From: Rugalucina vietnamica
Lineage: Eukaryota; Mollusca; Bivalvia; Lucinida; Lucinidae
Direction of reading: 5' to 3'
Length of the DNA stretch: 64,000 nucleotides
NCBI GenBank assembly: GCA_964017185.1
Contig: OZ024878.1
Span: forward strand, 17,301,851-17,365,850
In this document: piece by piece, positions 60,326 through 63,887 of the stretch
How the letters are laid out: each line of letters opens with the position of its first letter
Position numbering within the stretch: position 1 is the first letter of the stretch
The notes under the pieces: generated by a model
Seen by the model: the letters and a program-made list of their open reading frames with translations, nothing else
What the model was told of the DNA's origin: nothing
Databases searched by the model: none
Position numbers and translations under genes: made by a program

Positions 60326-60502
60326 CTATTTTCTTGCAAGTAGGCGTTGTGCCTTCCCATTGCCCATTTATGGAGCACATTCTCTTAGGTGCTCCAACAA
60401 GAATATAACCATTGCTGCATGTGTATTCTGCCATTTTCAAGTACGTTTTACCATGGGGTGTGGTTACTAGGCCATTTTCAGGTGCAGAAGGTTCGCCGCA
60501 CT
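60326..60502 (-). CDS. Sushi domain exon
   Basis: 177 nt, 59 codons, acceptor TTTCAG, donor GGTATGG, open. The peptide has CGEPSAPENGLVTTPHGKTY, YTCSNGYILV, RMCSINGQW and TPTCKKI, a textbook sushi domain with NG before the first beta segment. The donor is weaker (GTATGG) than others in the gene. It is not part of the array subfamily. Confidence 0.9.
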
Positions 60503-61124: not shown

Positions 61125-61303
61125 GAGATAAATACCCCCTTATACCCCACTTTTATACAGTAAAACTGGGGTATGCAGGGATATACCTATTTTTCTTATT
61201 TTTGCTCCAAAACATAGATTGTGGGTACTCGTTAGAACCGCCTCGCCGAGGCGGGTCTAACGTGTACCCACAATCTATGTTTTGAGCGAAAATAAGAAAA
61301 ATA
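61125..61303. repeat. Near-perfect palindrome beside an exon
   Basis: TTTTTCTTATTTT.GCTCAAAACATAGATTGTGGGTAC mirrors itself around CCGCCTCGCCGAGGCGG over 61191-61303. It is preceded by ACCCCACTTTTATACAG. Related to 29060-29245. It lies about 90 bases downstream of the donor of exon 61392-61565. Confidence 0.8.
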
Positions 61304-61391: not shown

Positions 61392-61565
61392 CTATGCTGT
61401 CACAGACAGTATTGCTATTACTCCAAACTCCGTCTCCACATTTTCTTGACACTTCACTCCTGACTTTATAACCAATATTACACTTGAAGCTTGCTTCAGA
61501 GCCGTGTTTGTTACCCCGAGTCAAGGTAATTGTGCCATTACCCAGGGATGGTAGAGCGGAACAAT
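61392..61565 (-). CDS. Sushi domain exon beside the exon-derived minisatellite
   Basis: 174 nt, 58 codons, acceptor ATTTCAG, donor GGTAAGG, open. The peptide has DCSALPSLGNGTITLTRGNK, FKCNIGYKV, RKCGDGVW and TVC. One sequon (NGT). Its first 58 nt and its acceptor are repeated about eleven times immediately upstream (61566-62475); only this copy continues into a full domain. Confidence 0.88.
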
Positions 61566-62475
61566 CTGAAATTATATAAAAAATTCAAAGTTGTTACCCC
61601 GAGTTAAGGCAATTTGTGCCATTACCCAGGGATGGTAGGGCGGAACAATCTGGAAACATATAGAAATTTCAAAGTTGTTACTCCGAATCAATGCAATTGT
61701 GCCATTACCCAGGATTGGTAGGGCGGAACAATCTGGAAACATATAGAAATTTCAAAGTTGTTACTCCGAATCAATGCAATTGTGCCATTACCCAGGATTG
61801 GTAGGGCGGAACAATCTGGAAATATACAGACATTTCAAAGTTGTTTCTCCTAGTCAAGGCCATTTTGCCATTACCCAGTGATGGTGGGGCAGAACAATCT
61901 GAAAATATGTAGAAATTTCAAAGTTGTTACTCCAAGTCAAGGCCATTGTGCCATTACCCAGGGACGGCAAGGCGAAATAATCTGAAAATATATAGAAATT
62001 TCAAAGTTGTTACTCCTAGTCAAGGCCATTGTGCCATTACCCAGGATTGGTAGGGCGGAACAATCTGACAATATATAGAAATTTCAAAGTTGTTACTCCG
62101 AGTCAAACCATGGTAGGGCAGAACAATCTGAAAATATATAGAAATTTCAAAGTTGTTACTCAGAGTCAAGGCCATTGTGCCATTACCCAGTGATGGTAGG
62201 GCAGAACAATCTGAAAATATATGGAAATTTCAAAGTTGTTACTCCGAGTCAAGACCATTGTGTCATTACCGAGGGACGGTAAGGCTGAGCAATCTGAAAA
62301 TATATAGAAAATTCAAAGTTGTTGCTCCGATCAAGGCCATTGTGCCATTACCCAGTGATGGTAGGGCAGAACAATCTGAAAATATATAGAAATTTCAAAG
62401 TTGTTACTCCGAGTTAAGGCCATTGTGCCATTACCCAGTGATGGTTGGGCAGAACAATCTGAAAATATATATAGA
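61566..62475 (-). repeat. Minisatellite of exon 5' ends with splice acceptors
   Basis: About eleven units of 82-84 bases (one about 63). On the minus strand each has a pyrimidine-rich tract and TTTCAG, then ATTGTTC.GCC...CCATC.CTGGGTAATGG and GAGTAACAACTTTG, i.e. the intron end and about 19 codons of exon 61392-61565. AG junctions fall near 61648, 61730, 61812, 61895, 61978, 62060, 62123, 62206, 62290, 62371 and 62455. Unit-to-unit variation is a few bases. Confidence 0.9.
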
Positions 62476-62905
62476 AATATCAAAGTGTTGATGACCAAAG
62501 TGAAAAGTTAAGCGACTCATTGACCGGTACTCAGTATACTAAATCGGTCGTCAGATAATAAATTGAAACATCCTGGCCTGGTGTTGGTGCCATCTCGGAC
62601 ATGTAAGGCATGAAAGTTTACTGGTTAAATCATCACTGAGCAATGTGTTTTCGCAGACGTGTAGATGGTTAACTGTAGCATAAACCTCTTTTGTGTAATT
62701 ATCTGTTGTGTTTTGTAAGTGAAGAAGATATAGTATTGCTTTCAGGACTCCGATCTAAACTTGTTTGCTTTGCTCTATTTTAAGGAGCGAAAACGGTTCA
62801 AAAATAGTAATTTTGCTTGTAAAACTATTTTGTACATTTATGTAGTGGCTCATTGTGTTGTTGTTCAAGGAGAGAAAATGATATGCGCAAAACATGAATC
62901 TGTTA
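62476..62905 (-). other. Intron, nothing recognised
   Basis: No exon, repeat or RNA signature seen. Confidence 0.4.
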
Positions 62906-63044
62906 TAGCTCCCGGACGATTGGAGTAGACTTACGTCACAGGTTTTCCGTTATACATATGAATGAAATGAATGTATTTGACCAATAGGAACAGGCGTGTC
63001 ATTCATATCTGTGACGAAAGTCTACTTCAATCGTCCGGGAGCTA
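62906..63044. mobile_element. Intact 139-bp MITE with TA target duplication
   Basis: TAGCTCCCGGACGATTGG with GAGTAGAC at the left and its inverse at the right, flanked by TA (62904-62905, 63045-63046). It is the reference that exposes the nested insertions in the copy at 628-1527. Confidence 0.88.
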
Positions 63045-63084
63045 TATTACTGTAGTCTGTTGTGTCTTATTTACGATAAAATAT

Positions 63085-63308: not shown

Positions 63309-63473
63309 CTTTTCTGCAGTTGTTTGTTGTATTCCATGCTCCATTTACACACTGTATTTTGTCCAGGACTGAGGAATAACCACCGTTACACACAGTCTCG
63401 CATTCATCCCCATCGTGCTTCAGACAAGTGTCCGAGATTTTCCCATTCGAAACATCACCACCACAAAGAACAG
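63309..63473 (-). CDS. Sushi-like exon with six cysteines (5'-most in window)
   Basis: 165 nt, 55 codons, acceptor CTTGCAG, donor GGTGAGT, phase 1-1, open. The peptide has LCGGDVSNGKISDTC, DECETVCNGGYSSVL, IQCVNGAWNTT and NNCRK. The sushi landmarks (Cys1, C-NGGY at Cys2, C.NG.W at Cys3) are clear, with two extra cysteines, presumably a third disulphide. One sequon (NTT). The gene continues upstream beyond 64000. Confidence 0.82.
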
Positions 63474-63540
63474 CTGCAAGTTAAAAACATATATGTGAAA
63501 CGGATACTTTTGTTCGCATTCTCTCTTGCCTCTAAACTTA

Positions 63541-63838
63541 ATTGGGTGATATATAAGGCACATTTTCCCATTCGATACGTACTTGATTAGATTATGATAT
63601 ATAAGGCGCATTTTCCTATTCGACACATACTTAATTGGATGATATGATATATAAGGCGCGTTTTCCCATTCGACACTTACTTAATTGGATGATATATAAG
63701 GCGCGTTTTCCTATTCGACACATACTTAATTGGATGATATATAAGGCGCGTTTTCCCATTTGATACATACTTAATTGGATGATACACAAGGTGCGTTTTC
63801 CCATTCGATACATCATGACCGCATAGAACAGCTGCAGG
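63541..63838 (-). repeat. 49-bp minisatellite and relic exon start
   Basis: About six units of roughly 49 bases, each with GATATATAAGGCGCGTTTTC and CCATTCGA.AC. On the minus strand the CGAATGGGAAAA part matches the start of exon 63309-63473. The upstream end (63791-63838) still has ACCTGCAG followed by CTGTTCTATGCGGTCATGAT, a decayed copy of that exon's acceptor and first codons. Confidence 0.8.
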
Positions 63839-63887
63839 TAAACACAACATGTTCGAACATTGAAAATAATTAAGTGTGAATCTGATG

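Follow-up and report, generated by a model that had tools for sequence, protein, structure and literature searches.

A mirage-type minisatellite that repeats an intron–exon boundary beside a sushi exon of Rugalucina vietnamica

In the lucinid bivalve Rugalucina vietnamica, a minisatellite repeats the 3′ end of an intron together with the beginning of the following sushi exon. By its sequence, this array is a member of the mirage class of tandemly repeated intron–exon boundaries: the repeat unit spans the authentic boundary, eleven units stand head to tail beside an intact exon and the acceptor CAG recurs in all twelve copies. Very probably, it is a neutral mirage-type minisatellite that was born by slippage and is tolerated because its 3′-most copy is intact. 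We infer the slippage origin, the choice of acceptor and the neutrality from the features described below.

Anatomy of the repeated boundary

The window, that is, the whole stretch of DNA analyzed, comprises 64,000 nt. The array and its immediate surroundings contain the following features.

61392-61565, minus strand: authentic complete sushi exon of 174 nt, phase 1-1, with donor GTAAGG after 61392 (Pfam PF00084, AG/GT, phase)
61566-61589, minus strand: intron tail that ends in the authentic acceptor TTTCAG and makes up the intronic portion of the last repeat copy (sequence, acceptor score 13.64)
61590-62484, minus strand: minisatellite of 11 partial units, each an intron tail plus an exon head (TRF, alignment, BLAST)
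62089-62151, minus strand: short unit of 63 bp with a 20-bp deletion in its exon-head part (unit alignment)
62485-62500, minus strand: left intron flank of the array, TCATCAACAC(TTTGA...), with short homology to the exon at GGTAACAAACACGG (junction strings, by eye)
62458, 62375, 62293, 62210, 62127, 62064, 61981, 61898, 61815, 61732, 61649 and 61565 (authentic), minus strand: first exon-like base after each acceptor

The partial units lie in tandem directly upstream of the complete exon, each combining the last ~25 nt of the intron with the first ~58 nt of the exon. Twelve acceptors of the form YYCAGATT were identified. The first eleven each precede an exon head that is cut short where the next intron tail directly begins, and the twelfth precedes the full exon (61565-61392). 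From first to last, the units measure 85, 82, 83, 83, 63, 83, 83, 83, 83, 83 and 84 bp. The initial annotation, which described about eleven units of 82–84 bp, was therefore right in number but not in uniform size, as ten units span 82-85 bp and one is shortened to 63 bp; it also located the array correctly but set its start at 62475, which lies instead at about 62484-62486.

TRF covered the array from 61508 to 62486 in two period-83 rows, 61508-62106 (89% matches, score 881) and 62110-62486 (89% matches, score 624). When the authentic boundary was compared to its own intron, BLAST returned 11 pieces with E values of 6e-32 to 9e-17 and one 17-nt piece at E 0.003, so that the resemblance is not due to chance. 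The copied region corresponds to exon positions of about -39 to +57, in agreement with the 58 nt or 19 codons of exon head given initially. The original observation is real. Any two units share 77-96% identity. Apart from the 20-bp deletion, two single-base indels are present among the copied exon heads, and in one unit the conserved Cys is lost (its head reads DYFALPSL). A DNA search with the boundary against the whole 1.09-Gb genome, which skips simple repeats and very common words, gave six matches, all within the array and its exon.

Gene context and strength of the acceptors

The exon beside the array scores 32.2 bits for Pfam Sushi PF00084 (cut-off 20.7) and has many neighbors of the same type, one member of the large exon array reaching 60.6 bits. 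In the window and 60 kb of adjoining contig, we delimited 29 minus-strand sushi exons by phase-1 AG and GT; every length is a multiple of three and together they provide 1,705 codons without a stop. On the basis of strand, phase and domain type, these exons probably form one gene. Since its frame stays open over all 29 exons, the gene looks functional and, therefore, the last acceptor of the array would be used at least in part. The two exons adjacent to that of the array are as follows.

63309-63473, minus strand: preceding sushi exon of 165 nt, the splice partner, with an acceptor score of 3.26 of its own (Pfam Sushi 19.2 bits, slightly below the cut-off of 20.7)
60326-60502, minus strand: next downstream sushi exon of 177 nt, in the open 29-exon frame (Pfam Sushi 44.8 bits)

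An EGF-like stretch lies 747-986 bases past the window end, with FXa_inhibition as its best Pfam match (24.1 bits, below the cut-off of 33.4). Among the 29 exons, 21 are nearly alike and start with CDQL or CDPL, many of them ~620-750 bp apart (window 7459-51585, minus strand); judged by sequence, they arose by recent tandem multiplication of exons within one gene. A 1188-aa open frame with the look, by eye, of a retrotransposon endonuclease and reverse transcriptase is located upstream of the sushi exons, 15022-18585 bases past the window end on the minus strand (L008 region). Visual inspection also revealed a near-perfect inverted repeat in the downstream intron (CAAAACATAGATTGTGGGTA... and its complement, window 61200-61300), resembling a hairpin or short inverted-repeat element, and a short MITE-like element with inverted ends (ATAGCTCCCGGACGATTG...) in the intron of the array (window 62900-63050).

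The twelve competing acceptors suggested initially all look competent. Their CAG is conserved throughout (0 changes in 36 cells), although at ~8% change per cell this is not far from chance. Scores were computed with a simple matrix built from 63 acceptors of exons outside the gene (leave-one-out median 8.6); a matrix from the gene’s own exons was discarded as uninformative, as these are mostly near-identical. The eleven upstream acceptors scored 9.97-13.58 and the authentic one, highest of the twelve, 13.64, placing all twelve at the 68th to 95th percentile of the 63 real acceptors and in the top 1% of 5,752 intronic AGs, array copies included (99th percentile 9.5). At position -29, nine of the twelve acceptors, among them the authentic one, feature a TAAC, which we take to be a plausible branch site. 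For the authentic acceptor, this TAAC is provided by the exon head copied in the neighboring upstream unit, and the upstream part of this acceptor is, thus, repeat sequence. A donor-like GTAATG follows the AG in frame after 24 nt in 11 of the 12 copies (authentic counted) and also occurs inside the authentic exon.

In silico splicing of exon 63473-63309 to the eleven upstream acceptors led to a stop in every case, within 11-63 codons, and the last acceptor alone leaves the frame open. The idea considered initially that the array diversifies splicing is, as far as protein diversity is concerned, consequently not supported, and among the twelve acceptors we found no second one that keeps the frame open, the mark of regulated tandem acceptors with coding products.

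Origin of the units and background rate of boundary copies

By eye, a few bases around AACA recur in the flank to the left of the first unit (TCATCAACACTTTGA), in the exon immediately beyond its copied part (GGTAACAAACACGG) and at the junctions between units (GTAACAACTTTGA). Such short homology at the edges is what slippage or unequal exchange between short direct repeats would leave, and the match between left flank and exon is probably the slippage junction. Nearer units are more alike (separation versus divergence, r = 0.39; permutation p 0.0032, 5,000 permutations): the neighboring units 9 and 10 are 96% identical and the outermost copies 80%, with the outermost copy the most divergent on average. 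This is the pattern that local turnover gives.

The array probably began when a segment running from within the intron (left edge) into the exon head (right edge) was duplicated in tandem, with short homology around AACA at its edges, and the duplicated unit would then have been amplified and homogenized by slippage or unequal exchange. Because the 3′-most copy is still continuous with the remainder of the exon, the coding exon would stay intact whatever the copy number and all other copies would turn into intron, as long as splicing uses the last acceptor. Exon definition, in which the last acceptor pairs with the exon’s own donor 174 nt away, probably ensures this choice in productive mRNA. 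Any use of an upstream acceptor would lead to an early stop and non-productive mRNA.

Coding constraint on the copies appeared as a hint in cell counts, with 27 of 221 third-position cells variable versus 25 of 442 at first and second positions. On a maximum-likelihood tree it was not significant: 15 of 36 exon changes fell at third positions (15 versus 21, p 0.19) and 14 of 31 derived states were synonymous, versus 32% expected (p 0.095). We, therefore, do not claim such constraint. A weak synonymous or third-position excess would be expected if new copies were sometimes taken from the coding head.

To place the array among other boundaries, we surveyed sushi exons in the gene region and 52 loci outside it (12 of the first 30, the other 18 being in the gene, then 20 + 20). 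The sample consists of sushi exons only and, because the Pfam sushi search scored 150 of 1,808 candidates, is not a genome-wide count. Exons were dropped if their frames were <35 or >220 aa, if the domain match started after model position 12, if a phase-1 YAG was missing, if the donor was missing or weak, or if they had <3 Cys. This left 93 exons (30 in the gene region versus the 29 delimited above), 85 of them with at least 250 nt of upstream and 58 with downstream sequence; these counts replace those of earlier, looser surveys, which covered 58 exon starts at 32 loci and 26 tails.

Incomplete copies of the exon’s own boundary were found at 4 of the 85 heads, namely the array (61565), the preceding exon (63473) and the loci L041 and L039. 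Upstream of the preceding exon stand two adjoining features, neither of which the initial annotation mentioned.

63796-63846, minus strand: second, decayed boundary copy with acceptor and first ~35 nt of exon 63309-63473 (84.6% identity, weak acceptor score of 0.22)
63536-63813, minus strand: 45-bp minisatellite, repeated about 6 times, parts of which resemble positions ~18-36 of exon 63309-63473 (TRF, BLAST)

No acceptor-like site was seen by eye in the 45-bp unit. L041, upstream of a sushi exon elsewhere on the same contig, contains a two-copy boundary duplication (plus strand, 2161-2568) that takes in the acceptor and the first ~63 nt of the exon, at 87% identity. In L039, the weakest of the four cases, a decayed copy is split by an inserted stretch. 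Four further head matches out of eight (L043, L058, L066 and L067) were not counted owing to whole-exon likeness or short matches inside the exon. Tails showed a boundary copy in 1 of 58 cases: in L035 (~1630-1825, reverse complement), exon tail and donor are copied once downstream with ~90% identity over 49 nt, by sequence a donor-side counterpart of a mirage. The other two of three tail matches (L058 and L066) were set aside on the same grounds as the rejected heads. For the gene’s 29 exons, no tail or donor copies were found within 5 kb downstream.

The sampled boundaries show no excess of copies. We applied one criterion throughout, counting a copy if it crossed the boundary or the centre of the window, had an E value of at most 1e-4 and lay within 1.5 kb upstream. 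By this criterion, a local copy was present in 5 of 85 boundary windows, including one whole-exon copy (L066), versus 22 of 296 windows drawn at random from these introns; the random windows are not independent, as three come from one satellite-like intron and two lie inside the array. Likewise, ten TRF arrays, hand-picked from rows with periods of 45 bp and more, spanned an acceptor 2.2 times on average when placed at random on the window; one such case is seen. In this sample, boundary copies are, thus, about as frequent as other local intronic copies, which supports neutrality, speaks against a dedicated mechanism and argues that such copies need no function. Together with the local turnover pattern and the lack of significant constraint, this makes neutral slippage, raised as a possibility at the outset, probably the best account.

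Known mirages, alternative readings and meaning

The initial annotation knew of no named class for such a structure, but one exists: it is described from amphioxus under the name of mirages (PMC3087553, PMC3902484). The BflGb6 mirage combines the 3′ end of intron B12.2 with the 5′ part of exon 2, in 6 and 3 units in two haplotypes, with units of 150-160 bp that are 81-100% identical (PMC3087553). In amphioxus, splice signals persist in many of the units, either boundary can be involved, RT-PCR suggests regular splicing, and an Adh3 case is cited (PMC3087553); PMC3902484 adds PGBD5, where the copies are imperfect, and also mentions Adh and TnC. As in amphioxus, the clam array consists of tandem units of intron end and exon start beside the authentic exon, and head as well as tail copies occur in the sampled genome. 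It differs in belonging to a sushi-exon gene and in having more units (11 extra), lengths mostly of 82-85 bp and all 12 acceptors intact; its sequence represents one haplotype. The mitochondrial COX1 of this genome, in which nine TGA codons are read through, translates well under code table 5 and seems to resemble that of bivalves; its relatives in the PDB are the usual cytochrome oxidases, which do not place the animal. In the open-access literature retrieved with our chosen terms, a scope that does not imply absence from print, boundary arrays in the present sense were recognized only in PMC3087553 and PMC3902484.

Other systems share parts of this architecture. The human gene IFI6 (6-16) contains a minisatellite with multiple splice donor sites, a tandem repeat that, like the array, multiplies a splice site, there donors rather than acceptors and with a much shorter unit.

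Intron gain by internal tandem duplication (Rogers model; PMC2812944) similarly involves duplication across splice signals with the added material becoming intron, whereas the array lengthens an old intron without forming a new one; human tandem repeats at exon–intron boundaries are related cases (PMC2812944). Polyubiquitin UBC, with its tandem dual-specific splice sites (PMC10809524), also repeats splice sites within one gene, but there whole coding monomers are spliced stochastically, in contrast to the incomplete exon heads leading to stops found here.

These data bear on three readings other than neutrality. The array could act as a regulatory decoy, its upstream acceptors competing with the last one to yield early-stop mRNA that decays, so that expression is tuned or delayed. 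The strength of all eleven upstream sites against the external matrix, the frequent TAAC and the stop behind every upstream acceptor are compatible with this reading, which equally predicts the twelve conserved CAGs and high scores, and intronic minisatellites have been tied to splicing elsewhere, with CeRep25B of Caenorhabditis elegans over-represented near multiple alternative splicing decisions (PMC4039745). We nevertheless regard it as unlikely, given that copies are in no excess at boundaries and drift without significant constraint, that published mirages are said not to disturb splicing (PMC3087553) and that stops arise without selection because an 83-bp unit is not a multiple of three.

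Short exons from the copies are formally possible, and the copies might supply alternative protein pieces, either as 24-nt exons from AG to the in-frame GTAATG, most of which translate to DCSALPSL-like peptides, or as truncated heads. This seems highly improbable, as the same GTAATG lies within the authentic exon, read-through from all upstream acceptors terminates and one copy has lost the conserved Cys. Least credible is an assembly artefact: although tandem repeats are a usual place for assembly errors and the sequence represents one individual, the units differ by 4-23%, which rules out stuttering within a single read, the assembly comprises 1.09 Gb in 47 contigs and the same structure recurs at lower copy number in other loci.

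As a mirage-type minisatellite, the array probably extends this class beyond lancelets, and the sushi-exon sample gives a rate for boundary copies. If used, the upstream acceptors would lower output rather than add protein diversity. More speculatively, and with low probability as a whole, tandem duplication in repeat-rich animal genomes may generally give rise to boundary-spanning minisatellites as a tolerated side product, with the array as a natural test of exon definition in which leakage to eleven similarly strong, earlier-transcribed acceptors would set a heritable, copy-number-dependent level of non-productive mRNA. Its eleven strong extra acceptors would provide a ready natural experiment on how the spliceosome picks the last of many similar acceptors.
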